DNA of 64,000 bases from Corynebacterium testudinoris (GTDB lineage: Bacteria > Actinomycetota > Actinomycetes > Mycobacteriales > Mycobacteriaceae). Position 1 is the stretch's first letter. Every line of letters starts with the position of its first letter. The notes under the pieces were generated by a model. That model worked only from the letters and a program-made list of their open reading frames with translations, was not told where the DNA came from and did not search any database. Shown piece after piece: positions 13,067-29,678 of the stretch. Made by a program: the position numbers and the translations under genes. Location: assembly GCF_001021045.1 (NCBI RefSeq), contig NZ_CP011545.1:62001-126000 (forward strand), given 5' to 3'.

Positions 13067-13579
13067 ATGAACATGGACCAGAAACTGCGTGACGTCATGA
13101 ATGCCCAGGTAATCGCCGAACACCAGGCCTCCCTCATCTACTCCCAGCTCGCCTACGACCTGGATCGACTGAGCTTCCCCGGCATGAGCACCTGGATGGC
13201 AGCCCAGGCTGATGAAGAGCGCATGCATGCCCAGAAGATCGCTGACCACCTGTTGGCCCGCGGCGAGCGCGTCGTGTTGTCTGACATTTCCCTCGCCGAG
13301 CTGGAGATCACCTCCCCGCTGGACGCCTTCAAGGCTGCCTTCGCGCATGAGCAGAAGGTCTCCGGCATGATCCGCAACCTCGCGCAGGTGGCTGATGAGG
13401 TCCGTGACTTCGACAGCCGTTCCCTGGTCAACTGGTTCCTCAACGAGCAGATTGAGGAAGAGGCGACCGTGTCCGAGATCGTTGATCAGCTCAACCTCGT
13501 CGGTGACAACGGCTCCGGTCTGCTGCGCATCGACACCGAGATGGGCGGCGAGCGCACGCCCGCTGGCGGCCCGCAGTAA
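13067..13579 (+). CDS. ftn: Ferritin
   Basis: 170-residue ferritin subunit that oxidises and stores iron in a 24-mer shell. Ferroxidase ligands are visible: Glu in NAQVIAEHQAS, the E..H pair in QADEERMHAQKI, Glu in AFAHEQKVS and Gln/Glu in LNEQIEEEATV. Three in-frame ATGs exist (13058, 13067, 13073); I chose 13067 because TAGCAT (13054-13059) lies 7 nt upstream, the leaderless arrangement used throughout this window. A strong terminator follows. It lies just upstream of the haem-iron release and uptake region, so storage and acquisition genes are neighbours. Confidence 0.92.
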   Translation: MNMDQKLRDVMNAQVIAEHQASLIYSQLAYDLDRLSFPGMSTWMAAQADEERMHAQKIADHLLARGERVVLSDISLAELEITSPLDAFKAAFAHEQKVSGMIRNLAQVADEVRDFDSRSLVNWFLNEQIEEEATVSEIVDQLNLVGDNGSGLLRIDTEMGGERTPAGGPQ

Positions 13580-13630: not shown

Positions 13631-13720
13631 GTGTGTTTCGCCACCGCGGTCTGGTGGCCGGGGGTCATCCGAAAGGAGGATTTTTGGTGCGCGGTCTGGC
13701 TTTCTCGCCGCAAGTCAAAT

Positions 13721-13739
13721 TAAGGTGAGGCTAACCCAA
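13721..13739. promoter_or_regulatory. DtxR-type iron box upstream of hmuO
   Basis: TAAGGTGAGGCTAACCCAA matches the 19-bp DtxR consensus TWAGGTTAGSCTAACCTWA at 17 of 19 positions. It lies 46 bp before the hmuO start, so hmuO should be repressed by iron-loaded DtxR. Confidence 0.85.
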
Positions 13740-13784
13740 CTAAGGGTGACCTAAATCGAAAGTTTGAGTTTGGAAGGCCGAATG

Positions 13785-14453
13785 ATGCTCACCGCCACTC
13801 GCCAGCCCCTGTCCCACCTGCTCCGCGACGCCACCGCCGCCGCACATGGCTACGCGGAGAAGTCTCCGTTTATGTCCCGCCTCGTCGCGGGATCGCTCAC
13901 GCGCGCCGCCGTGGCTGATTACACCGCCCAGCTGTGGTTCATCTACCGCGCGCTGGAGGAGGGCGTCCGGGCCAACGGAGACGGGCCGTTCCTCTCCGCT
14001 GTGGCGGACCAGCGCCTCGAGCGCGTTTATGCCCTCGAGGCCGACCTGGTGGAACTCATTGGGCCGGAATGGCGCGAGGAGATTGTCCCGGGGCCGGGCA
14101 CCGCTGCCTTCGTGGAGCTGCTCACCGGGCTCTCCGATACCGGCGATGACCTCGCCCTGCTGGCCCATCACTACGTGCGTTACCTGGGCGATCTTTCCGG
14201 AGGGCAAGTCATTGCCCGCATGCTCCGCGACCGCTACGGCGTCACTGACGCGGGAGTGAACTTCTACCGCTTCAACGACATCGGCAAGATCAAGCCCTAC
14301 CGCGATGGTTACCGCAGTGCCCTCGACGGTCTAGAGCTCACCGATGAGCAGTCCGCCCATCTCGTCGCTGCCGCCCAAGAGGCTTTCGCGGCCAACGGGA
14401 GGGTGTTTCAAGACCTCGCCGATCGCCACTGCAGCGTCTCCGACCGCTTCTAG
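13785..14453 (+). CDS. hmuO: Haem oxygenase HmuO
   Basis: 222-residue biliverdin-forming haem oxygenase that opens the haem ring and frees iron in the cytoplasm. The proximal His region is seen in TAAAHGYAEKSPFMSRL and the distal helix in YVRYLGDLSGGQVIARML, with KIKPYRDGYRSALD as later landmark. Tandem ATGs at 13782 and 13785: the second is 7 nt after the RBS GGAAGG and is preferred. A DtxR box precedes it, and the htaA-hmuTUV haem import operon lies just beyond, so import and degradation are co-located. Convergent with the small membrane gene at 14466-14915. Confidence 0.95.
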   Translation: MLTATRQPLSHLLRDATAAAHGYAEKSPFMSRLVAGSLTRAAVADYTAQLWFIYRALEEGVRANGDGPFLSAVADQRLERVYALEADLVELIGPEWREEIVPGPGTAAFVELLTGLSDTGDDLALLAHHYVRYLGDLSGGQVIARMLRDRYGVTDAGVNFYRFNDIGKIKPYRDGYRSALDGLELTDEQSAHLVAAAQEAFAANGRVFQDLADRHCSVSDRF

Positions 14454-14465
14454 CCCCTCTCGCGA

Positions 14466-14915
14466 CTATGACCAGCGCGGCGACAACCCTGGGGCAAACC
14501 ACAGGATCGCCGCGCTGACCAGGCCAACCGCCGTCGCGCCGGTAAGGGCAAACGCCGGCGGGACCAGCCACAGCACCAGAAGCGATAGCACTGCGATGCC
14601 GAGCCAGGCCAGGGGAAGGGCCCAGCTCATCCAGCGGTGCTCGATGAAATTGTTCTCGGACCACTCCAGCTGGGGGAAGCGATCACGCGCCTCGGAGCGA
14701 ATCCTTCGCCCGGTGTTCCGCGATGCGGCGAACAGGGCGAGGAGCACGAGCGCGGCACCGACACCCGTGATGATGAGATCGCCGTAAGCCGCGCCGAAGG
14801 CAAGCACCCCGCCCGCCACAGAAATGGCGAGCCGCTCCGCGACCGAAAGGGGCAGGGAGTCCTGGGGGTCGACATCGGGATACAGGGTGTCGAAGCGGGG
14901 GTCGTGCAGTGTCAT
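14466..14915 (-). CDS. Small membrane protein divergent from htaA
   Basis: 149 residues with four predicted membrane segments in two pairs (LAISVAGGVLAFGAAYGDL, ITGVGAALVLLALFAAS, then WALPLAWLGIAVLSLLVLWL and ALTGATAVGLVSAAILWFA) separated by a basic, polar loop. No family recognised with certainty. I start it at MTLHDPRF (14915); the longer frame would run through the promoter. It faces away from htaA across a region holding DtxR-like boxes, so it may be iron-regulated and linked to haem uptake, which is inference from position only. Confidence 0.65.
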   Translation of the reverse strand: MTLHDPRFDTLYPDVDPQDSLPLSVAERLAISVAGGVLAFGAAYGDLIITGVGAALVLLALFAASRNTGRRIRSEARDRFPQLEWSENNFIEHRWMSWALPLAWLGIAVLSLLVLWLVPPAFALTGATAVGLVSAAILWFAPGLSPRWS

Positions 14916-14968
14916 GCCGGGGGTGTCCTTCGGGGCCGATCGATTATCAGGATATTCACCATAGAATG

Positions 14969-15007
14969 CTAGGCTAGCCAAACCTAACACAGGGCAGCCT
15001 TACCTAA
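14969..15007. promoter_or_regulatory. DtxR-type boxes in the divergent htaA promoter region
   Basis: 14969-14987 (CTAGGCTAGCCAAACCTAA) matches the DtxR consensus on the minus strand at 16 of 19 positions. A second, weaker match (about 14 of 19) lies at 14989-15007 and ends CCTTACCTAA. Both lie between the divergent genes at 14915 and 15014, placing htaA-hmuTUV, and perhaps the membrane gene, under iron control. Confidence 0.78.
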
Positions 15008-15013
15008 AGGAGA

Positions 15014-16819
15014 ATGATAGTTTTGTCTTCACACCGGACAAGCCGACTAGCCGCCCTAGCGGTCGGCGCGCTGACTGCCACCACCCTGGCGATCCCCGTG
15101 GTCTCCCCAGTGACAGCCGAAGCCCAAACGTGTGCCGATGGTCGCATCGGCGCGGTGGGAGGTACGTGGGACTGGGGCATCAGAGAATCCTGGCGGAGCT
15201 ACATCCGCGGCAACGTAGCCAAGGGCGATTGGACCACCGAGTCTCTCAACTACGACGGCTCCGCCTTCAACTTCACCCCCAGCCCTGGTGCCGCCACCAT
15301 CGAAGCGAGTAAAGCAGTCATCCCCTTCGATGGCTCCGTCCACTTCACCGGACACGATGGCGTGCTGGATACGAAGATGAGCGACTTCAAGCTCATCATC
15401 GATGGGAACAGCGCCGGAATTTCGGTTGACTACGATGCCGTGGAGTTTGTGAGTATCGCGGGTGGCGGTGGCCCGCGCATGATCGAAGACGACCAGATCA
15501 TCGCCACCGTGTCCCTTGACCAGGCCTTTGACGGCGATGCCGCGACCGTGAATCTCTCAGGAACCACTAACCTCACGCAGGCGGGGGTCAAGCTCTTTGG
15601 AGCATATAAGCTCAACGAGGAGCTCGATAACTCCGGCGGCACCCTCAACCTCGGCACCGAATGTGGCGCCCGCCCGGTGAACTCCGCTGGCCAGGGTGGC
15701 ATCACGGGTTCTTTGAAGGAACTGAACTCTGCGTTCTCCGAAACCAACACCCTGCTGTCCAACACCACGAAGCTGTTGGGCCACGTGGATACCCTCTTCG
15801 GACCGGAAGAAACGGCGGCGTCGGCAAGCACTGGTGTGAAGCCCTCGACGGGTGGCACGACTGCTGGAACCACCGGCGGGACAGGCGGCGGAACTGCCGC
15901 CGGTGCCGCCGGGACAGGGGCCGGAACCGGAGCGGGCGCAGCTGGCGCGCCCACGGGGAGCGGTGACGTTTGTACGGCGGATTCTTCGCGCGGCGTGACC
16001 CAGGCGCAGGCTCTGTGGGGTGTGCGTCAGTCGTTCCGGAATTACATCAACGGCGGTATCGCCAAGGGCGGCTGGGAGCTGACCGGGATCGGCGAGCAGG
16101 GCAGCGAATTTGTGTTCTCCGGCAATTCCGGCGCGATTGATCCGGCGGCGCAGACGGGCACGATTTTGTTCCCCGGCATGATTCGATTTACCGGCCACGG
16201 TGGCACGCTGGACACTCGCTTTAGCAATATTGAGATCCAGTTTAATGGCACCTCGGGGGCTTTGGTGGCCGACGTGACATCGAACTCGGTCGAGGGTGTT
16301 CCCAACGACTACGGTCGCACCGCGTTGGCCCAGCTGAACTTCAGCGCCTTGGACCTGGGGGATACTTCGGCATCGGGCACCGCCCAGACCATCCTCACCC
16401 AGGCTGGTTCGCAGGCCTTCGGCGATTTCTACCCCGCTGGCGATGCGCTTGATCCGATTTCCTTCACCGCAACCCTTGGTGGGGCGGCGGCGTGTGCTGC
16501 AGGTCAGGGCGCGGCGCCGACGGCGGGCGGTTCCTCCGCCGGAGGTAGCAGTGGCGGCGCCGCGAAGGCTGCGGCGCTCAAGGCCGGCGGCGCGGCTGCG
16601 ACGCCGGGTGCGCTGCCCAACAGTGGTGGGACCACCACGAGCGCTGGCCTGCAGGCTGGCTCGGGTGATCAGTTCCGCATCAAGGCTGCCGGTGAGAACG
16701 CTGGTTTGAGCAATGACCGCGTGGCCACCATGATCCTGCTGCTCGTCGCCGCGTTCATCGTGGCTGGCGGATCGCTCAGTGGCTTCGTGCGCCGCCATCC
16801 CACGATGGGTGGGCAGTAA
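15014..16819 (+). CDS. htaA: Surface haem-binding protein HtaA
   Basis: 601-residue surface protein that takes haem from host haemoproteins and passes it to HmuT. Signal peptide in the first ~39 residues (ALAVGALTATTLAIPVV ... AEAQT). Two CR (HtaA) domains: one begins near TWDWGIRESWRSYIRG, the second near ALWGVRQSFRNYINGG; each carries the conserved Tyr region and the His in RFTGHGG / HFTGHDG. A Gly/Ala/Thr-rich linker separates them and a C-terminal membrane anchor (TMILLLVAAFIVAGGSL) with a basic tail ends the protein. The RBS AAAGGAG lies only 1 nt before the ATG at 15014, so the TTG at 15023 may be the real start. Overlaps hmuT by one base. Confidence 0.93.
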   Translation: MIVLSSHRTSRLAALAVGALTATTLAIPVVSPVTAEAQTCADGRIGAVGGTWDWGIRESWRSYIRGNVAKGDWTTESLNYDGSAFNFTPSPGAATIEASKAVIPFDGSVHFTGHDGVLDTKMSDFKLIIDGNSAGISVDYDAVEFVSIAGGGGPRMIEDDQIIATVSLDQAFDGDAATVNLSGTTNLTQAGVKLFGAYKLNEELDNSGGTLNLGTECGARPVNSAGQGGITGSLKELNSAFSETNTLLSNTTKLLGHVDTLFGPEETAASASTGVKPSTGGTTAGTTGGTGGGTAAGAAGTGAGTGAGAAGAPTGSGDVCTADSSRGVTQAQALWGVRQSFRNYINGGIAKGGWELTGIGEQGSEFVFSGNSGAIDPAAQTGTILFPGMIRFTGHGGTLDTRFSNIEIQFNGTSGALVADVTSNSVEGVPNDYGRTALAQLNFSALDLGDTSASGTAQTILTQAGSQAFGDFYPAGDALDPISFTATLGGAAACAAGQGAAPTAGGSSAGGSSGGAAKAAALKAGGAAATPGALPNSGGTTTSAGLQAGSGDQFRIKAAGENAGLSNDRVATMILLLVAAFIVAGGSLSGFVRRHPTMGGQ

Positions 16820-17883
16820 TGCGAAAGCTGCTTACGGCGGTGGTCCTCACGGCCACCCTCGGACTGGGTGCCTGCTCTTCCTGGGATCAGGGGTCCTCGA
16901 GTGCGAATGAACAGCTCCGCGCGGAGCTAAGCAATGCCAATGTCACTGATCCTCGTGAGATGACGGGCGTGGCCACGGTCGGCGAGATGTCGGAGGTGGA
17001 ACCCGTCACCACCAGCGCGTCCCCGGCGCTGCCAGTAGAGCTTGTCGACGCCGACGGCTACGACGTCGCCATCACCGATGTCTCCCGCATCCTGGCCCTC
17101 GACCTCTATGGCACGTATACCAAGACGCTGCGCGGGATCGGTCTTGGCGAGAACATCATCGGCCGCACCATCAGCTCCACCGAGCCGTCTCTGGCTCACC
17201 TGCCGACCGTGACGGAAGGCGGCCACGGCCTCAACGTCGAGGCAGTGTTGAACCTGCGCCCCACCCTCGTCATGGTCGATCACTCCGTGGGGCCCCGCGA
17301 AGCCATCGATCAGATCCGCGCGGCCGGGGTGACGGTCGTCGTGATGAATCCGGCTCGTTCGCTGGACACGATCGGCCAGGACATCATGGACGTTGCCTCC
17401 GTTGTCGGGCTTCCGGAGGAGGGCCAGAAGTTGGCTGATCGCTCCCTCACGGACCTGGAGAACGATCGGGCGGCGATCGCGGAGATCGCCCCGGCGGAGC
17501 CGCTGCGCATGGCATTCCTCTACGCGCGTGGCGAGGGCGGTGTGTTCTTCATCCTCGGCGAGGACGACGGCACCCGCGGGCTCATCGAGGGCCTCGGTGG
17601 CATCGACGTGGCCTCGGACAACGGTGTCGGCGCGCCCTCACCCGCCAGCGCCGAAGCCCTCGCCGAGCTCAACCCCGAAGTCTTCATCATGATGACAGGC
17701 GGCCTCGAATCAACCGGTGATCTCGAAGGACTGCTCAAACGCCCCGGCGTCGCGCAGACCATCGCGGGCCAGAAGCAACGCATCCTCGCGCTTCCCGACG
17801 GCCAGTCCCTCGCCTTCGGCCCGCAGACCGGTGAGATGTTGCTGCGCTCCGCGCAGGCGCTTTACCTCGGGGAGGGTCAGTGA
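16819..17883 (+). CDS. hmuT: Haem-binding lipoprotein HmuT
   Basis: 354-residue extracytoplasmic haem receptor for the HmuUV transporter. Lipoprotein signal peptide MRKLLTAVVLTATLGLGAC with lipobox LGAC. The fold is that of periplasmic binding protein domains: SRILALDLYGTYTKTLRGIGLG, LRPTLVMVDHSVGPREAIDQ, and ALAELNPEVFIMMTGGLES. The conserved His/Tyr haem ligands of the family would be expected near LPTVTEGGHGLN and the C-terminal domain. Its ATG shares a base with the htaA TAA and its stop overlaps the hmuU start, so the operon is tightly coupled. Regulated with htaA by the DtxR boxes. Confidence 0.93.
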   Translation: MRKLLTAVVLTATLGLGACSSWDQGSSSANEQLRAELSNANVTDPREMTGVATVGEMSEVEPVTTSASPALPVELVDADGYDVAITDVSRILALDLYGTYTKTLRGIGLGENIIGRTISSTEPSLAHLPTVTEGGHGLNVEAVLNLRPTLVMVDHSVGPREAIDQIRAAGVTVVVMNPARSLDTIGQDIMDVASVVGLPEEGQKLADRSLTDLENDRAAIAEIAPAEPLRMAFLYARGEGGVFFILGEDDGTRGLIEGLGGIDVASDNGVGAPSPASAEALAELNPEVFIMMTGGLESTGDLEGLLKRPGVAQTIAGQKQRILALPDGQSLAFGPQTGEMLLRSAQALYLGEGQ

Positions 17884-18968
17884 CGGCAACGGTGACGGTG
17901 TCGCCGGTGACGATGGGGGACGGGGCGTCGATAAGCAATGACGTTTTCCGACGCCGCGCGCTCCGGCGCGTCATCCTCCTCATCGCCCTGTGCTTCGGAG
18001 TGGTGGCGACATCGGTGGTGTCGCTGCTGGTCGGGCAGTTCGAGATTCCGCTGCGCGAGCTACCGCGGATCCTCCTGCTCGGCCCCATGGGCGTGAGCGA
18101 TCTCAGTGAATCGGTGATCTGGCAGATCCGGATCCCGCGCGTCGTGCTGGGCCTGCTGGTTGGCGCCGCGCTCGGTGTGGGTGGCGCACTCATGCAGGCC
18201 GTGTTTGCCAATCCGCTGGCGGAACCGTCGGTCATCGGCGTTACCAGCGGTGCCGGCGTGGGCGCGGCGGCTGCGATCGTGTTCGGCTGGAACTTTCTCG
18301 GCGCGTCGACGACGCCTTTCCTTGCGTTCATCGCGGGCCTGCTCACCACGGTGGTGGTGTATGGCCTCGCGCGTTTCGACGGTTCCATCCGCGTCATCAA
18401 CCTCATCCTCGTCGGCATCGCGGTCAATGCGGTAGCCGGGGCGGCGATCTCCTTCCTGGTGTTCCTCGCGCCGACGACCTCCCGCGAGCAGATCGTGTTC
18501 TGGCAGATGGGCTCGCTGGGTGGTGCGCAGTGGAGTCACGTATCGGTGGTCTCAGTCATCGTGGCCGTGGGTATCGCGGTGGCGCTGTTCCTCGGCAGGC
18601 ACCTCGACGTGCTGTCGCTAGGGGACAAGGCGGCATCACACGTCGGCGTCGATGTCGGACGGCTGCGCGCCGTGGCGATCATCACCGCCACCATGCTCAC
18701 CGCCGCCGCCGTGTCCTACGCCGGGCTCATCGGCTTCGTCGGCCTCATCGTCCCGCACATCATCCGCACGATCGCGGGCCCATCGAATCACCTCATTCTG
18801 CCCGCCTCAGCGCTCGGCGGGGCGGTGCTCATCGGGTTGGCCGACATCGCCGCGCGCACGGTCATTCCCTTCGCTGACCTGCCTATCGGCATCTTCACGG
18901 CGCTTGTCGGCGGCCCGACGTTCTTCATCCTCCTGCGCCGCATGATGCGAAAGGGGCACGGCAGATGA
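17880..18968 (+). CDS. hmuU: Haem ABC transporter permease HmuU
   Basis: 362-residue FecCD/BtuC-type permease with about ten membrane segments. Family marks: [56 protein letters not shown] and the cytoplasmic coupling region GLIGFVGLIVPHIIRTIAG. The start is GTG, overlapping the hmuT TGA; an N-terminal polar stretch of about 25 residues precedes the first membrane span. The 11-mer CGTCGATAAGC (17926-17936) falls inside this stretch and is read as part of ASIS. Coupled to hmuV by an ATGA. Confidence 0.94.
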   Translation: MTATVTVSPVTMGDGASISNDVFRRRALRRVILLIALCFGVVATSVVSLLVGQFEIPLRELPRILLLGPMGVSDLSESVIWQIRIPRVVLGLLVGAALGVGGALMQAVFANPLAEPSVIGVTSGAGVGAAAAIVFGWNFLGASTTPFLAFIAGLLTTVVVYGLARFDGSIRVINLILVGIAVNAVAGAAISFLVFLAPTTSREQIVFWQMGSLGGAQWSHVSVVSVIVAVGIAVALFLGRHLDVLSLGDKAASHVGVDVGRLRAVAIITATMLTAAAVSYAGLIGFVGLIVPHIIRTIAGPSNHLILPASALGGAVLIGLADIAARTVIPFADLPIGIFTALVGGPTFFILLRRMMRKGHGR

Positions 18969-19828
18969 GTGCATTACTCTGCGCGGATAACGTCCACGTG
19001 CGCGTCGGCTCCACTACGATCCTCGAGGGCGTCTCCTTAGACGTATTCCCCGGCGAAGTCGTCGGCCTCATCGGGCCGAATGGTGCCGGAAAATCCACGC
19101 TATTGTCCGTTTTGTCCGGCGACCTGGTCCCCAGCGCCGGGCACGTCGAGGTCGCCGGCGCCTCACCGCGGGAGGTCTCCGTCAAGCAACTGGCCCGCCT
19201 GCGTGCGGTCATGCTGCAGGACGTCTCCGTCGCCTTCGCTTTCCTCGTCCGCGATGTCGTGGAGATGGGTCGCCGCCCCTGGGGCCGTTCCGACGACGAT
19301 TCGCTTATCGACGCCGCCCTCACCGCCACCGGTGTCACCCACCTCGCAGGCCGCGACATCACCACCCTGTCGGGTGGTGAAAGAGCCAGGGTTGCCCTCT
19401 CGCGCGTGCTGGCCCAACAAACGCCCGTGGTGCTTCTCGACGAACCCACCGCCGCCATGGACATCCGCCACCAGGAGCAATCCCTGGGGCTCGTCCGCCA
19501 ACTCGCTGCCGCGGGCAAAGCCGTGGTCGTGGTGTTGCACGACCTCAACGCCGCGGCAGCCTACTGCGACCGCATCGTTTGCCTGGCCAACGGTCAGGTC
19601 GCGGCCTCCGGGTCCGTCCCGGAAGTCATCCGCGAGGACGTGCTTTCCGACGTCTACGGCTGGCCCATCCACGTCACCACCGGCCCCGCGGGGGTCCCCC
19701 AAGTGCTGCCCACCCGCGGGGAAGCACTGGTGTCTCACGAGCTCGCATCCCTCCTTGGGGGTGCCGAGGGGGGTGAGTTAAACCCCACTTTGCCAAGAAA
19801 TTGGCAGACCAAGGCAAGCCTATCCTAA
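18965..19828 (+). CDS. hmuV: Haem ABC transporter ATPase HmuV
   Basis: 287-residue ATPase that drives haem import through HmuU. Walker A GPNGAGKSTLL (about residues 38-48), signature LSGGERARVALSRVLAQ, Walker B VVLLDEPTAAMD and switch His in VVVLHDLNAAAAYCDRI. The length is slightly above the usual ~260 because of a C-terminal extension after VLPTRGEALVSHEL that looks unstructured. The last gene of htaA-hmuTUV; htaC follows after 84 bp with its own iron box. Confidence 0.95.
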   Translation: MSALLCADNVHVRVGSTTILEGVSLDVFPGEVVGLIGPNGAGKSTLLSVLSGDLVPSAGHVEVAGASPREVSVKQLARLRAVMLQDVSVAFAFLVRDVVEMGRRPWGRSDDDSLIDAALTATGVTHLAGRDITTLSGGERARVALSRVLAQQTPVVLLDEPTAAMDIRHQEQSLGLVRQLAAAGKAVVVVLHDLNAAAAYCDRIVCLANGQVAASGSVPEVIREDVLSDVYGWPIHVTTGPAGVPQVLPTRGEALVSHELASLLGGAEGGELNPTLPRNWQTKASLS

Positions 19829-19838
19829 GCTGACTGCT

Positions 19839-19857
19839 GTCGGTTGGGCTAACCCAA
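19839..19857. promoter_or_regulatory. DtxR-like box upstream of htaC
   Basis: GTCGGTTGGGCTAACCCAA matches the DtxR consensus at 15 of 19 positions and contains the dyad GTTGGGC-TA-ACCCAAC. It lies 55 bp before the htaC start, so htaC can be transcribed separately from hmuV and repressed by iron. Confidence 0.68.
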
Positions 19858-19912
19858 CGCACAGCTCCATCTCATTCCACGCTTCTGCTCCACTAAGAAA
19901 GGTTCACTCCAC

Positions 19913-20854
19913 GTGAAAACCACCACCCGAATCATCGCCAGCTCCACCGCCGCCATCCTCACCGCCGGCCTGCTCACCCCCATCGCCCACGCCCAGGAAA
20001 ACATCACCCTCGAAGGCAATGCCACCTGGGGAGTGAAGGCCAGCTTCAGTAAGTACATCAAGAGCCCTATTGCTAAGGGGTCGATCACCCCGGGCGACAA
20101 TGCCACCTGGGCTGACGCTGTGCTGAACATGCCACTGGACTCCGAGGGGACCACTGTTACTGCCAAGGATCAGGGTGTTCTCGACTTCGATGGTTCCGTA
20201 CATTTCCAGGGGCACAGTGGCCAGCTCGATCTGACCTTTAGCGACTTCAAGGTCAACGTCAACGGCAACACTGGCACCCTCACTGTGGATTACGCCTCTC
20301 TTCCCTACGTCCCTGATGCGAAGATGGAGTATGGCCAGGATCAGGTCTTGGCAGACCTGACCTTCGAGGGCGACGTTGACCTCACTAAGCCCGGCACTCT
20401 CAAGGCTAACTCTAAGTTGGCATCCACCGGAGTCGCTGTGTTCGCGGGCTTCTACAAGGTTGGTGATGTGCTCGATCCCATCAACATCAACCTAACCAAT
20501 GTTGACATCGCCGAGGTTCCGGAAGAGACCACCGCTCCGGAAGAAGCCACTACTTCTGTGGAGCCCACCGCTCCGGAAGAGACCACTACTTCTGTGGAGC
20601 CCACCAAGCCTTCCGAGCCGGCTAAGCCCACCGAGCCGTCCAAGCCGTCGACGACCCCCAATCCGACCTCGCCCTCTACCCCTGCTGCAACCGAGAATGC
20701 GCAGGAAGGTTCCAGCGTCGACCAGACCATCGATGACATCAAGAAGAAGGGCTTCTTCGGCACGATCATCTCGATCCTCTCCAGCGTGCTGGGTGTCGGA
20801 GCTATCGGCGCCGCCCTGGTCGCAATCGCTAAGCACCTCGGCTGGGTTCGCTAA
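19913..20854 (+). CDS. htaC: Haem-binding membrane-anchored protein HtaC-like (single CR domain)
   Basis: 313 residues, GTG start 6-8 nt after the RBS AAGAAAGG. Sec signal peptide (ASSTAAILTAGLLTPIAHAQ). One CR/HtaA domain follows: TWGVKASFSKYIKSPIAKG, then LDFDGSVHFQGHSGQLDLTF with conserved His, and DYASLPYVPDA. A Pro/Glu/Thr-rich stalk with imperfect repeats of PEETTTSVEPT type spans about residues 200-260, then a C-terminal anchor (IISILSSVLGVGAIGAALVAIA) and basic end. The stalk would carry the haem-binding domain across the cell wall. HtaB is the alternative name for single-domain paralogues; the symbol is therefore tentative. Confidence 0.88.
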   Translation: MKTTTRIIASSTAAILTAGLLTPIAHAQENITLEGNATWGVKASFSKYIKSPIAKGSITPGDNATWADAVLNMPLDSEGTTVTAKDQGVLDFDGSVHFQGHSGQLDLTFSDFKVNVNGNTGTLTVDYASLPYVPDAKMEYGQDQVLADLTFEGDVDLTKPGTLKANSKLASTGVAVFAGFYKVGDVLDPININLTNVDIAEVPEETTAPEEATTSVEPTAPEETTTSVEPTKPSEPAKPTEPSKPSTTPNPTSPSTPAATENAQEGSSVDQTIDDIKKKGFFGTIISILSSVLGVGAIGAALVAIAKHLGWVR

Positions 20855-20890
20855 AACTAGGGTCGCGGCAAACTAATTTTGCTCAACCCC

Positions 20891-20919
20891 TTGCGGTTAA
20901 GGGTAGCCTTACCTATAGT
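20891..20919 (+). promoter_or_regulatory. Promoter with embedded DtxR box downstream of htaC
   Basis: A -35 element TTGCGG (20891-20896) and -10 element TATAGT (20914-20919) are separated by exactly 17 bp. The spacer and -10 carry TAAGGGTAGCCTTACCTAT (20898-20916), 16 of 19 matches to the DtxR consensus. Transcription is expected to start near 20926. No coding gene begins before a terminator at 21034-21074, so this promoter appears to serve a non-coding RNA. Confidence 0.75.
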
Positions 20920-20925
20920 CGAGTT

Positions 20926-21074
20926 AGCGGTTCGGGACCTCCAACTCTTACCGCCAACTGAGACAAAAACCATCTGACTTCGACCCCCTGGGAGGCCGTT
21001 CGATACGTAGCCCTTAACTCTTCATTGCTGGCGCAGACCCGGAGACTGGTAGTCCCTCCGGGTCTGTGTTTTTG
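20926..21074 (+). ncRNA. Candidate iron-repressed small RNA
   Basis: A ~149-nt unit runs from the predicted start near 20926 to the U-run of an intrinsic terminator. It contains no ATG or GTG, and no reading frame with an RBS. An internal pairing is possible between ACCTCC (20937-20942) and GGGAGG (20990-20995) and C-rich unpaired segments occur (GACCCCC near 20982), as in several Gram-positive regulatory RNAs. By analogy with the IdeR-controlled mycobacterial sRNA MrsI and with RyhB in enteric bacteria, an iron-sparing regulator is a sensible hypothesis; sequence similarity to either is not claimed. Confidence 0.55.
21034..21074 (+). terminator. Intrinsic terminator of the candidate sRNA
   Basis: CAGACCCGGAG (21034-21044) pairs perfectly with CTCCGGGTCTG (21056-21066) across an 11-nt loop and is followed by TGTTTTTG. 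Strong rho-independent terminator; no coding gene lies immediately upstream except htaC 180 bp away. Confidence 0.85.
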
Positions 21075-21104
21075 CGTGGTCTATGAGCACTGGTCAGGGG
21101 CTTG

Positions 21105-21501
21105 CAGTGTGCGCAGCTGCGCACACTGCGCAAGGTCATGGTTCGCCGGGACCCAGTTGTTGTGGCCTGTTTACGGAGCATCACAGCGCGCACGGCGTTT
21201 TGTGGTGATTTGAGAAGACCGATGTGAGTAGGCCGATTAATCGAGTAGCGATCCCCGCCCTCTCGATAGACGGGTCTGCTCGAATTGCCATTTGGGAAAC
21301 GGGATTGTGCTGAGGTGCTGCGCAGGGGGCACAGTCCACCCGGCAGCCTATTTGTGCTGGTCACGGGCGCGCAGTGTGCGCAGCTGCGCACTGTGGTTAA
21401 GGGTGATTTGAGAAAGCCGATGTGAGTGGGCCGATTAATCGAGTAGCGATCACTGTCCACTCGATTGATGGGTCTGCTCGAATTGCCATTTGGGGAACGG
21501 G
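21105..21501. repeat. Intergenic repeat cluster: two palindromes and two 100-bp direct repeats
   Basis: No gene is supportable between the terminator at 21074 and amn at 21573. GTGCGCAGCTGCGCAC occurs at 21109-21124 (extended to a 24-bp perfect palindrome at 21105-21128) and again at 21376-21391. Two direct repeats of about 100 bp, roughly 89% alike, lie at 21204-21303 and 21402-21501; both contain CCGATTAATCGAGTAGCGATC and TCTGCTCGAATTGCCATTTG. Each repeat follows one palindrome, so a palindrome-plus-repeat module has been duplicated. Confidence 0.85.
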
Positions 21502-21572: not shown

Positions 21573-23000
21573 GTGAGAGATCAGGAACTGACCCGGGTAG
21601 TTGATGTTGAGGGGGCCGTCGATAAGCTTGTTGAGCTTTATGATCGCTCGGCGGAGTTGGCCCGCACCGTCTTAGAGGATGGCACGTACGAGGCCTATCG
21701 GGATGTTGTGTATCCCAAGCTCGTTGTGGATGTGAAGGAGTGGCATCCGATTGATCGTTCGGAGCCTTTTGGATATGTCGACGAGGCGGGGCGCTATTCT
21801 GCCACCTTGTCCAAGCCCCACCTCATGCGGGCGTATCTCCTTGAACAGCTGACTCGCTTGACGGGCAACTACCCCTGCGACATTTACGTGGGCCCGTCCG
21901 AGGTGCGCATTCCACCGGAGTACATCCGCGGTGTTGAGGGGATTTCGGAGGCCCGCAGGGCGGGAGACGCTGCGGAGTGCATTCCTCGGCCGACGCTGGA
22001 TCATGTGCATGACGGGATCGTCGATAGTGATTGGGACGCATTCCACGGGCCGGAGAAGCCACTTTTCCACTTTGGGCCGCAACGATTCGACATCGCGTGT
22101 GCGCGGATCGAGCACTACACCGGCATCGAGGTGGAGTCGCTGCAGAAGTACATCCTGTTTACGAACTACGACATGCACACGACGGAGTTCGTCAGTTTCG
22201 GTGTGGAGCAGCTGGCCGCCGATGATTCCCGATACACGTCTCTGGTCCTGCCGTCGGGTTCGCGGATTAGTCGCGATCACGCGGCTCGGCTCGATGACAC
22301 TGACCTTGACCTCGGGTCGAAGTATCAAATGCCGCGCTATGACTTGTGTACTCGTGACGGCGATGGCATCACGATGCTCAACATTGGCGTGGGCCCCTCG
22401 AATGCCAAGACGATCACCGATTGCCTCGCCGTGCTCCGGCCTGAGGCGTGGATCATGATTGGGCACTGTGCGGGTCTGGATGGGCGCATGCGCATCGGTG
22501 ATCTCATCCTCGGCAATGCTTATCAGCGCAAAGATGGGATTCTCGACGAGCGTATCGCGAGGGATATCCCCATCCCGGCGGTCCCTGAGATTCAACGGAC
22601 GTTGGAGAGCTCCGTGGAGGCAATCTACGGCGACGATAAATCCCTCATGCGCACCGGCACTGTGCTGTCTACCGATGACCGCAACTGGGAATGGAAGACT
22701 CCGCGGGAGTTGTGGGAGTGGTTGCGCGGATCTACTGCCGCGGCCGTCGATATGGAATCCTGTGCGTTGGCGACGAATGGTTACCGCTATCGCATCCCCT
22801 ACGGCACGCTGCTTTCTGTCTCCGACCTGCCGCTGCACGCTGTGCCCAAGTTGCCGGCGCAGGCGCAGGCGTTCTACTCCAACTCGAAACAGGCGCACGT
22901 GATGTGCGCGGTGAGGGCCGTGGAGGTGATGGCGCGCAACCCGGAGCGGTTGCGCACGAGGAAGCTGCGCCGCACGATTGGTGAGGTGCCGTTTAGGTAG
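21573..23000 (+). CDS. amn: AMP nucleosidase
   Basis: 475 residues, the usual length of Amn, which cleaves AMP to adenine and ribose 5-phosphate. N-terminal AMP nucleosidase domain (YGYV-like region FGYVDEAGRYSATLSKPHL) and C-terminal nucleoside phosphorylase-type domain with NIGVGPSNAKTITDCLAVL, MIGHCAGLDGRMRIGD, DMESCALATNGYRYR (acidic catalytic region) and SVSDLPLH. The open frame extends 36 codons upstream, but I start at GTG 21573 because AAAGGAGG lies 9 nt before it. A CGTCGATAAGC motif is at 21617-21627. Likely monocistronic. Confidence 0.93.
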   Translation: MRDQELTRVVDVEGAVDKLVELYDRSAELARTVLEDGTYEAYRDVVYPKLVVDVKEWHPIDRSEPFGYVDEAGRYSATLSKPHLMRAYLLEQLTRLTGNYPCDIYVGPSEVRIPPEYIRGVEGISEARRAGDAAECIPRPTLDHVHDGIVDSDWDAFHGPEKPLFHFGPQRFDIACARIEHYTGIEVESLQKYILFTNYDMHTTEFVSFGVEQLAADDSRYTSLVLPSGSRISRDHAARLDDTDLDLGSKYQMPRYDLCTRDGDGITMLNIGVGPSNAKTITDCLAVLRPEAWIMIGHCAGLDGRMRIGDLILGNAYQRKDGILDERIARDIPIPAVPEIQRTLESSVEAIYGDDKSLMRTGTVLSTDDRNWEWKTPRELWEWLRGSTAAAVDMESCALATNGYRYRIPYGTLLSVSDLPLHAVPKLPAQAQAFYSNSKQAHVMCAVRAVEVMARNPERLRTRKLRRTIGEVPFR

Positions 23001-24903: not shown

Positions 24904-24944
24904 TTGACGCGCATCACAACGTGTTCTAGGTTAGCCTTACCTTA
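24904..24944 (+). promoter_or_regulatory. Promoter with strong DtxR box
   Basis: -35 TTGACG (24904-24909), 17-bp spacer, -10 TAGGTT (24927-24932). CTAGGTTAGCCTTACCTTA (24926-24944) matches the DtxR consensus at 17 of 19 positions and covers the -10 box, so the following gene should be strongly repressed by iron. Confidence 0.85.
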
Positions 24945-24962: not shown

Positions 24963-25742
24963 ATGATCAGCACCACCACGTACGCAGAGAGCCTGGCTCG
25001 ACGTATTTTTCATGGCGCCGGCGCATTGTCGCTGGTGCCTTATCGCGTCGACTCCACCGCTCACTTCCCGGTCCTCGCGCACGGCATCAATGCGCACGGC
25101 CAGTTGGTGGTTGCCTGCGCCGCCGCCGACACGGAGCGCATGGGCGACCGTACGGGGGAGACAGCAGTACGCGTGGATGGGATCAAGAAGTCCCTCGAAT
25201 TCGACGTAGACATCACCGTCGCCAGCCTGCACGCCCTCGCAGACATCACGTGGGTCGAGCCGGGGGCTGCGGTGGAGGGCCTCGACGTCGACCCCAACCC
25301 GTACCTCAGGTTCGGTGTACTCAAGCTGGACAACGTGTTCATCCGCGGCCCGCAGGGAACCACGCGCACCTCCTTCGATGAGCTCATCGAAGGAAAGTTG
25401 GACTCGCGGGAACTTGATGCCCGCGAACTCGACGCTCGCGAGGCGGTTGATCGCCTTCCGGTGTGGCGCCAGTCCCAGCTCATCGACGACGTTTTGGGCG
25501 GCAACCTCCCGGGCATTCTCCTGGCAGATCGCGTGCAGCCGCTGTGCTCATCGCATCATTTCCGCCTGTGGGTTGCGGACGTTGATCCCCGCGGAATCGT
25601 GCTGCTCAAGGCCACCGATGACCGGGTCACCACCGTGCTCGTGCAGTTCGCCGAGCGGGTCACCACTATCGAAGACTTGGCCCGGGCAGTCGATGTCCTG
25701 GCCGTACCTGCCTCGGACCGGAACGCTTCACCGCGTATCTGA
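24963..25742 (+). CDS. Iron-regulated cytoplasmic protein, possibly DUF2470/HugZ-like
   Basis: 259 residues, no signal peptide or membrane segment. The N-terminal half (FHGAGALSLVPYRVDSTAHF, HGINAHGQLVVACAAADTER) is reminiscent of the split-barrel FMN/haem-binding fold found in DUF2470 and HugZ-type proteins; this is a weak resemblance. A tandem charged repeat, LDSRELDARELDAREAVDRL, lies near residues 142-161. A SSHHFRLW segment near residue 200 supplies a His pair. RBS and a DtxR-covered promoter precede it and a strong terminator follows, so it is a single-gene iron-repressed unit. A role in haem or siderophore iron use is inferred from regulation. Confidence 0.6.
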   Translation: MISTTTYAESLARRIFHGAGALSLVPYRVDSTAHFPVLAHGINAHGQLVVACAAADTERMGDRTGETAVRVDGIKKSLEFDVDITVASLHALADITWVEPGAAVEGLDVDPNPYLRFGVLKLDNVFIRGPQGTTRTSFDELIEGKLDSRELDARELDAREAVDRLPVWRQSQLIDDVLGGNLPGILLADRVQPLCSSHHFRLWVADVDPRGIVLLKATDDRVTTVLVQFAERVTTIEDLARAVDVLAVPASDRNASPRI

Positions 25743-28844: not shown

Positions 28845-28868
28845 CAGGCAATCGACTTTGGAGGCTTC

Positions 28869-29678
28869 ATGAAGATCGCCTTATTCTCCACCTGCATCGT
28901 TGATGCGATGTACCCCCGGGTGGCTCTAGCCACCGTCCGCATCCTGGAAAGACTCGGCCACGAAGTCGTCTTTCCCACCGGTCAGGGCTGTTGTTCCCAG
29001 ATGCACGTTAACAGCGGCTACCTCGACGATGCGCTTCCGGTGGTGAAAAACCACGTCAAGGCCTTCCAGCAGGCCGATTATGACGTGGCCGTCGCCCCGT
29101 CTGGCTCATGCGTCGCCTCCCTCGGCCACCAGCAGCCGATGGTCGCTCGCGCCGCCGGCGACGAAGGCCTGGCCCGCGATGCCCAGGCTGTGGCCGATAA
29201 CACGTATGAGCTTTCTCAACTGCTTATCGACGTCTTGGGGGTCACCGATGCTGCCAAGCAGCTCGGTTCCTACTTCCCCCACTCGGTGACTTACCACCCG
29301 TCTTGCCACGGAAAGCGCCTGCTCAACCTGGGTGATCGCCAGCCCACGCTGCTGCGTTCGGTGGAGGGCATCGATTTCCGGGAGCTCCCCGATGCCGCCG
29401 AGTGTTGCGGCTTCGGCGGCACGTTCTCCCTCAAGAACCCGGATGTCTCCGGCGCGATGGCGGAAGAAAAGATCGGCAATATTCGGTCCACCGGCGCCGA
29501 GATCTGCACCGGTGGCGACGCCGCCTGCCTCCTCCACATCGGTGGTGCGATTCGCCACCGCGGCGAGTCCGGCATGCAGACCCTGCACTTCGCTGAGATC
29601 CTCGCCTCCACCCGCGAGAATCCCCTCGACCTCTCCCACGGCTACAGCCATGCAATCCCGGAAGGAGCCTCGCGATGA
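28869..29678 (+). CDS. lutA: Lactate utilisation protein LutA (Fe-S oxidoreductase)
   Basis: 269 residues with two CCG domains: GQGCCSQMHVNSGY and HPSCHGKR ... AAECCGFGGTFSLK, which bind an iron-sulfur or heterodisulfide-reductase-like cluster. LutA works with LutB and LutC to oxidise L-lactate to pyruvate, passing electrons to the respiratory chain. RBS TTGGAGG lies about 7 nt before the ATG. First gene of lutABC, overlapping lutB by an ATGA. A CGTCGATAAGC motif (29222-29232) falls within it as part of LLIDV. Confidence 0.93.
   Translation: MKIALFSTCIVDAMYPRVALATVRILERLGHEVVFPTGQGCCSQMHVNSGYLDDALPVVKNHVKAFQQADYDVAVAPSGSCVASLGHQQPMVARAAGDEGLARDAQAVADNTYELSQLLIDVLGVTDAAKQLGSYFPHSVTYHPSCHGKRLLNLGDRQPTLLRSVEGIDFRELPDAAECCGFGGTFSLKNPDVSGAMAEEKIGNIRSTGAEICTGGDAACLLHIGGAIRHRGESGMQTLHFAEILASTRENPLDLSHGYSHAIPEGASR

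Follow-up and report, generated by a model that had tools for sequence, protein, structure and literature searches.

A putative DtxR-controlled small RNA near amn in Corynebacterium testudinoris, with related units at the amn locus of other Corynebacterium species

In this study, we describe a unit in Corynebacterium testudinoris which, as judged from its sequence and its relatives, very probably encodes a short non-coding RNA switched on at low iron. We give a probability of about three in four to the reading that it is a free-standing, DtxR-repressed small RNA (sRNA) of about 145 nt, which spares iron by pairing of a C-rich loop with Shine-Dalgarno sequences; lutABC and phoX are the candidate targets. 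Related RNAs, which probably stop the synthesis of iron-consuming enzymes, are found near amn in many Corynebacterium species, though not in all, and very probably form a new family among RNAs whose functional kind is already known. The classic iron repressor DtxR is known mainly through the protein-coding genes under its control.

Results

A predicted iron-repressor operator at the unit's own promoter

The window is the whole stretch of DNA that was analysed, 64 kb (G000:C1:62001-126000) of the 2.72-Mb C. testudinoris genome. The RNA unit is placed between the end of htaC (20854) and the start of amn (21573), and its features are listed in Table 1. The first-pass annotation had described a promoter TTGCGG-17 bp-TATAGT and a perfect 11-bp terminator stem with a U-run. 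The promoter was found as described (20891-20919), with a spacer of 17 bp, and the pairing of the terminator arms CAGACCCGGAG and CTCCGGGTCTG, followed by TGTTTTT, was exact (21034-21073). A DtxR box had also been described, with a score of 16/19. The box is present (20898-20916) and overlaps the -10 element, but its score is 15/19 against the operator consensus TTAGGTTAGSCTAACCTAA; the copy in the sister genome, G029, scores 16/19. An operator of the iron-repressor type is present at the unit's own promoter at the sequence level, as in RNAs of the MrsI type, in which an IdeR box lies near the start.

Table 1. Positions of the RNA unit, its parts and its neighbours in the window
Feature	Position	Strand	Basis and remarks
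ftn (ferritin)	13067..13579	+	Next gene 5' of the RNA in G029
Haem block hmuO, htaA, hmuT, hmuU, hmuV, htaC and one minus-strand ORF	13782..20854	+	Outside the RNA gene
AT-rich AAACTAATTTT 5' of the -35 element	20870..20880	+	Alignments; similar in window-like relatives; possible UP-like element
-35 element TTGCGG	20891..20896	+	Sequence; TTGCAC in G029
DtxR operator TAAGGGTAGCCTTACCTAT (15/19)	20898..20916	.	Consensus scoring; 3-bp overlap with the -10 element
-10 element TATAGT	20914..20919	+	Sequence; retained in G029
Possible P1 5' strand GAGUUA	20921..20926	+	Folds; partner UAACUC at 21015-21020; perhaps partly 5' of the start
Predicted small RNA	20926..21073	+	Start predicted from the -10 element (about 20923-20927), end at the U-run; 137/145 vs G029
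Seed hairpin GCGGU..GGG-loop-CUC..ACCGC	20927..20954	+	Folds of window and G029
C-rich loop ACCUCCAA, proposed to pair as seed with ribosome-binding sites	20937..20944	+	Identical in G029
UGGGAGG, complementary to the seed loop, possible lid	20989..20995	+	Sequence; analogue UGGGG in the second form; putative function
Second pyrimidine-rich stretch CCCUUAACUCUUCAUUG	21011..21027	+	Putative; resembles presumed seeds of C. alimapuense and C. pollutisoli
Intrinsic terminator	21034..21073	+	11-bp stem, 11-nt loop, UGUUUUU
amn (AMP nucleosidase)	21573..23000	+	Usual 3' neighbour of the RNA unit
Candidate target site, lutA ribosome-binding site UUGGAGG	28858..28864	+	Complementary to CCUCCAA; ATG at 28869

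DtxR-like sites scoring at least 14/19 occur at seven places in the 64 kb (14 rows with both strands counted), against a mean of 0.23 rows in 60 first-order Markov sequences at the same score. Five of these places, at 13721 (before hmuO), 14969 and 14989 (before htaA) and 19810 and 19839 (before htaC), are all close to these genes. The remaining two are 20898 in the RNA unit and 24926 before an uncharacterised gene. Six of the seven therefore adjoin haem genes or the RNA unit. The genome also carries a gene for a DtxR-family repressor. The box at 24926-24944 (16/19) is found in G029 as well (L003 13737) and precedes a gene at 24963-25742, for which NCBIfam and Pfam gave zero matches. Terminator-type stems (at least 10 bp with a T-rich tail) were rare: the window has one other, and five simulated sequences had none.

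The unit could be a chance promoter and terminator without any RNA. The promoter is weak by consensus, having 8 of the 12 sigma-70 consensus bases, and the terminator loop has 11 nt; a default mechanical scan picked up neither element. The fold of the window RNA was not better than that of shuffled sequences (z -0.99). Since the scan misses both elements and the fold is no better than shuffles, the sequence of the window alone would leave the unit open. It is raised above chance because promoter, RNA and terminator are retained in G029 while the flanks are not. The operator statistics and the related units across the genus, described below, also speak against chance, which we consider extremely improbable.

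Between about 20926 and the terminator there is one start codon (ATG, GTG or TTG), the TTG at 21025, which has no ribosome-binding site and whose frame crosses the terminator. A usable open reading frame (ORF) is absent over the approximately 145 nt between promoter and terminator, in agreement with the first-pass annotation, which had seen no start codon with a ribosome-binding site there. Rfam gave no match at the gathering score for the window and six related loci, and its near-misses were rejected as chance families.

The unit is kept in a sister genome that has no haem genes beside it

A BLAST search with 20880-21080 over 201 genus genomes found the unit only in C. testudinoris itself and G029 (2/201), and a 31-nt piece with up to three mismatches was found in the same pair among 242 genus genomes. 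An exact 20-mer scan of genome contigs, own genome left out, gave zero matches. In G029, the homology runs from the promoter to the U-run and then ends. Identity between the two copies is 137/145 over the transcript (20926-21070) and 37/46 over the promoter, and the 60 nt flanking the unit on each side match at 37/68 and 37/65, gaps counted. For comparison, third codon positions are identical at 0.81 in ftn and 0.67 in amn, and an identity of 94.5% is attained by 2-13% of 150-bp segments in three collinear neighbouring blocks.

The gene order in G029 is ftn, RNA, a Mutator/IS256-type transposase gene (PF00872) and amn; this transposase gene (L003 8781-10019, minus strand) is inserted between the RNA and amn. 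The interval between ftn and the RNA (L003 7994-8139) contains no haem genes, and an HtaC query, which also retrieves HtaA in C. testudinoris, gave zero matches in the G029 genome. The haem block (window 13640-20870) is missing from the corresponding interval of G029, and C. alimapuense (L093) has hmuO there. From this comparison, a 7-kb haem block is taken to have been either acquired or deleted in the interval from ftn to the RNA. On the other side of the unit, repeats occupy a large part of the interval before amn (21081-21501), namely two direct copies, both imperfect (116 nt at 86% and 55 nt at 78%), and an inverted repeat of 23 bp that is perfect.

The unit follows htaC immediately, on the strand of that gene, and its terminator could serve the operon. 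It could therefore be a 3' untranslated region with terminator, belonging to htaC or to the haem operon, in which a promoter-like sequence is present by chance; a similar terminator between an ORF 3' of hmuO and amn in another genome, G155, fits such an origin. However, G029 retains operator, RNA and terminator without haem genes there, and an HtaA/HmuT-type match is missing from the covered part of the upstream flank in 19 of the 21 loci of the second form of the unit (see below). We therefore regard a tail of htaC as highly improbable. Because G029 keeps the unit without haem genes, we consider it a gene of its own, independent of the haem locus. The first-pass annotation had placed the RNA at the end of the haem locus, and this placement does not hold for G029, where the unit stands between ftn and amn.

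Related units are found at the amn locus of other species

A covariance model, R1, was built from the window and G029 only, before other members were known. Against 242 genus genomes, it gave four matches at E<=0.01. Two were its own members, and the other two were rejected: the match in G155 is a bare terminator, and that in G171 is coding DNA with a terminator. In G155, an ORF for an exported-looking protein (L091 814-1460) lies between hmuO and amn behind a DtxR-like site and has a terminator similar to the one of the window RNA. Since R1 found no further full-length members in the 242 genomes, the amn locus was read across genomes. A total of 75 loci were returned, of which 64 of Corynebacterium type (L093-L156) were kept and 11 from Alphaproteobacteria were left out.

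Operator-like boxes precede amn in many of the 64 loci. A related unit was seen in 26/64, with 21 of a second form and five like the window; in each of them an operator-like box (13-16/19) is accompanied by a C-rich seed stretch. No unit was seen in the other 38, including that of C. silvaticum; 13 of the 64 loci cover less than 9 kb upstream, and a unit could be elsewhere. When R1 was run against these loci (1.14 Mb), all seven matches at E<=10 fell on a unit with an operator-like box: L094 (E 0.01), L125, L126, L127, L130 and L132 (0.036 each) and L093 (0.54), five of the seven being near-identical relatives.

The window-like members are the window, G029, C. alimapuense (L093), C. pollutisoli (L094) and three MAGs (L097, L139, L153), and the boxes score 16/19 in L093, 13/19 in L094, 15/19 in L139 and 14/19 in L153. 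They have in common the operator region, an element resembling ACTAATTT and a stretch rich in pyrimidines. This stretch reads CUCCAAC(C)UCUU in the MAGs as well as in the window and G029, whereas L094 has CUCCAUACUCUU and L093 has CUCCGACACUCUU. CUCCAA forms a hairpin loop in the folds of L153 and L097, and the stem is less clear in L093 and L094. A long terminal hairpin without a clear U-run (GAGGCGGGAAYCGGUGGACGUGGUGGUUCAC...) is found in L094, L097, L139 and L153, strongly conserved and 5' of an apparently leaderless amn.

The second form has a constant loop in a varying stem

The second form is found in species including C. aurimucosum, C. flavescens, C. minutissimum, C. tuberculostearicum, C. 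striatum, C. phocae, C. phoceense and C. macginleyi. Loci first picked by the box alone all carried GATTAGTCATGGGG, and when this word was searched in the 64 loci with up to two mismatches, all copies at units were exact. It occurs in 40 of 242 genus genomes, compared with 2/242 for the reversed control pattern. Of 30 copies fetched, two (L170 and L177) were dropped because the rest of the unit was missing. The resulting set of 49 copies (21 from the amn loci and 28 from the genus set, with possible overlap of species) reduces to 25 different sequences. Each of the 25 has a box of 13-15/19 and the promoter pattern TTGAC-N16-18-TANNNT, the end of which lies seven nt ahead of GCCTAAT.

The alignment (A3) holds 23 of these sequences; the two omitted differ only past the aligned 3' end. 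GCUCCA is invariant in all 23 rows. GCCUAA and GAUUAGUCAUGGGG are invariant too, these being the words used to pick or cut the copies. The predicted structure consists of a helix P1 (CUAAUC/GAUUAG), a variable stem P2 around the GCUCCA loop, UCAUGGGG and the terminator. A length of roughly 95-120 nt is predicted for RNAs of this form. The loop corresponds to the C-rich loop of the window, the counterpart being CUCCA followed by A or C. In this structure, 94.8% of cells were paired, compared with 32-52% in slid controls. Pairs changed on both sides numbered 12/28 (shuffle mean 7.1), which 0/500 shuffles reached, and a measure of further pair types was matched by 25/500; in this test the structure comes from one member's own fold, and related rows are counted repeatedly. 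P1 is silent on covariation because it is nearly constant. Without use of the alignment, stems flanking GCUCCA scored 6.5, against a mean of 3.5 and a maximum of 4.2 in 200 shuffled sets. CUCCA and UGGGG are complementary in 23/23 aligned rows (for example, L116 7761-7868) and may form a pseudoknot lid, although their constancy bars a covariation test.

A model of the second form, R2, matched 49 of 242 genus genomes at E<=0.1. At E<=1.2e-11 there were 38 genomes, which are the true carriers of the motif, and ten others lay at E 0.001-0.1. A new member, G014 (E 1.7e-4), has the promoter, the box, GUGCUCCACUUG, UGUCAUGGGGAG and the terminator 5' of amn, and its P1 strands differ from those of other members. 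The second form is thus present in 39/242 genus genomes (38 carriers and G014). In 301 genomes of the taxonomic family, R2 gave 22 matches at E<=0.01, five in the genus and 17 outside it (E 0.0016-0.0099); the best of those outside (G430) is a bare terminator.

The unit usually adjoins amn, and in the close relatives L101, L108, L109, L171 and L172 a frame from a conserved AUG enters amn, as might be seen if the unit were a leader or attenuator through which DtxR controls amn, or the mRNA of a small protein. We consider both very unlikely. The transposase gene of G029 separates the unit from amn, and in L105, L115, L117, L125 and L156 the copies are kilobases away from amn, with other genes between. 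In the set of 49 copies, frames that begin at the conserved AUG are between 14 and 487 codons long (the 487-codon frame occurs in 10/49) and have no common sequence beyond the part encoded by the terminator; a small ORF at this AUG was rejected on this ground.

The two forms have in common their place, strand, operator logic, a similar seed and a terminal hairpin. R1 matched five second-form loci (E 0.036, position-specific), and R2, when run against the window RNA and G029, recognised neither. The position of the box also differs: it lies in the spacer and -10 element in the window form and over the -10 element and the start region in the second form. At the level of sequence comparison, synteny connects the two forms, together with weak model matches in one direction only. 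Common descent is likely, not proven.

Candidate targets of the C-rich loop

The lutA gene is the first of an operon with LutB of the Fe-S lactate oxidase (LutB by NCBIfam), and its leader carries UUUGGAGG in both window-form genomes. The lutA leaders of 15/15 second-form genomes contain GGAGC, compared with 7/39 background GGAG sites, although these orthologues are not independent. Pairing at about -16 kcal/mol or better was seen for 3/15 second-form lutA leaders and for none of 38 background genes. The other lutA leaders were ordinary, since 47% of the 38 background genes reach -9.7 or better, and shuffled loops equalled the real loop in 5-34% of trials for 11/15 leaders. In 11/15 leaders, the second-form core pairs at -9.7 to -16.1 vs -5.9 to -6.5 for the window core. 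For lutA of the window, the difference is small (own core -11.3, swapped core -10.1).

The window loop was ranked over 70 leaders, namely 67 window genes and three chosen by seed match. Its best partner was phoX (PF05787; -19.5), followed by lpqB, which is no iron protein. PhoX uses iron. The first-pass annotation had proposed ferritin, LutB and hmuO among the targets. Ferritin did not stand, as ftn leaders pair weakly with the loop in the window and in second-form loci (simple duplex estimate). hmuO kept moderate pairing only (5th/70). LutB fared better through lutA, the first gene of its operon, which is a better but still weak candidate (8th/70, -15.8, with 4.9% of shuffled loops as good).

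Genome-wide searches for seed complements gave no excess. Matches to GRGTTGGRGGTYY with one mismatch numbered 65 vs 61 for the control in C. testudinoris and 61 vs 74 in G029, and in the fetched loci the sites near gene starts pointed to no obvious iron gene. TTGGAGG-N3-10-ATG exceeded its reversed control in the two genomes (56 vs 23 and 48 vs 10), as expected of any Shine-Dalgarno-like word. Of 20 such places taken from C. testudinoris (18 picked by eye as conserved with G029 and two for strong words), the plain gene starts besides lutA were lpqB, a PcrA/UvrD-like helicase gene and phoX. For GTGGAGCG-N2-9-ATG in 15 second-form genomes, 30 fetched loci gave five candidate starts, all within longer frames and with no recurring iron gene. 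Full-length duplex prediction over the 67 window genes was rejected, as it produced long, unspecific duplexes. These results suggest lutA and phoX as candidate targets on weak evidence.

Discussion

The best reading of the unit is a DtxR-controlled non-coding RNA, as the first-pass annotation had proposed. That annotation had named a lack of promoter and terminator conservation in related corynebacteria as evidence against it; the unit was found in G029, and related units were found at 26 of 64 amn loci. Comparison of genomes supports the gene unit, its operator and terminator, the architecture of hairpin and loop, and the family at the amn locus. From this arrangement we infer transcription and its start, the iron response, the base pairing and each target. 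When iron is present, DtxR-Fe(II) would sit on the operator over the -10 region and block transcription. When iron is absent, the RNA would be transcribed and end at its own terminator. Its C-rich loop, with the core CUCCA, would pair with GGAG-type Shine-Dalgarno regions of mRNAs for dispensable iron enzymes, and this pairing would block their translation, with lutABC and phoX as candidates, so that iron is spared in the manner of MrsI, FsrA or IsrR.

A more specific form of this mechanism is tentative and, to our judgement, rather doubtful. In it, the RNAs would be an iron-sparing family of Corynebacterium's own, in which the DtxR operator is also part of the RNA. In the second form, the operator half GCCTAA would pair with GAUUAG as one strand (5') of the closing helix, and the neighbouring UGGGG would be a lid by which the RNA hides or exposes its CUCCA seed; the seed and the lutA site would have changed together between the two forms.

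The target tests are weak, and UCAUGGGG is kept beside the seed, with which it can pair, even in G014 with its different P1. A DtxR-controlled sRNA without iron-sparing Shine-Dalgarno pairing could have these properties, acting as a regulator of haem or siderophore uptake, as a sponge or by protein binding via UCAUGGGG. However, the C-rich loop stays the same in stems of varying sequence, and the lutA site is complementary in both forms despite their differing seeds. We consider such another function unlikely and prefer iron sparing by Shine-Dalgarno pairing.

In the literature on DtxR, iron and sRNAs, as covered by titles and the openings of abstracts, we found no corynebacterial iron-responsive sRNA; an unnamed listing in a supplement is possible. 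The main text of one report does not mention DtxR (PMC4046766), and that of another does not contain the term sRNA (PMC12327846). A third report describes predicted sRNAs with dtxR or hmuT as possible targets (PMC8247434), and in a fourth there are 51 intergenic starts, 29 of which were assigned ORFs (PMC5784534).

If the iron-sparing reading is true, a conserved RNA arm would explain how corynebacteria could lower iron enzymes without a DtxR box. Carriers of the second form include human-associated species, for which a shortage of iron is expected (C. striatum, C. tuberculostearicum, C. macginleyi and C. aurimucosum). With its predicted boundaries, constant seed and candidate targets, the family is directly testable.

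RyhB of enterobacteria is an iron-repressed, iron-sparing RNA that involves Fur and Hfq. The Corynebacterium RNA would follow the same logic, and the use of Fur and Hfq sets RyhB apart.

MrsI (ncRv11846) of Mycobacterium is an IdeR-controlled iron-sparing sRNA, described in two reviews as a structured RNA of about 100 nt with a predicted terminator, a 6-8-nt seed and a 7-nt apical loop, which acts on iron-protein mRNAs (PMC11188477, PMC8628891). Compared by description, the Corynebacterium unit resembles it in having a DtxR-family operator at the promoter, a predicted structured RNA, a terminator and a proposed seed loop. The positions differ: MrsI is placed between blaI and Rv1847 (PMC8628891), whereas the Corynebacterium unit is near ftn/abh and amn. 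MrsI targets bfrA, whereas ferritin was not supported as a target of the Corynebacterium RNA.

FsrA of Bacillus subtilis is iron-repressed, and its C-rich regions have been proposed to block ribosome-binding sites; it affects lutABC, with direct pairing unconfirmed (PMC8464778). The likeness is again one of description. FsrA is controlled by Fur and works with Fbp proteins, whereas the Corynebacterium unit has a DtxR-type operator. IsrR of Staphylococcus is genus-wide and iron-repressed, ends at a terminator and has three C-rich regions, two of them in hairpin loops, which pair with Shine-Dalgarno sequences (PMC9410917). IsrR is under Fur control, and its first two stems covary little, whereas the second-form stems of the Corynebacterium RNA covary.
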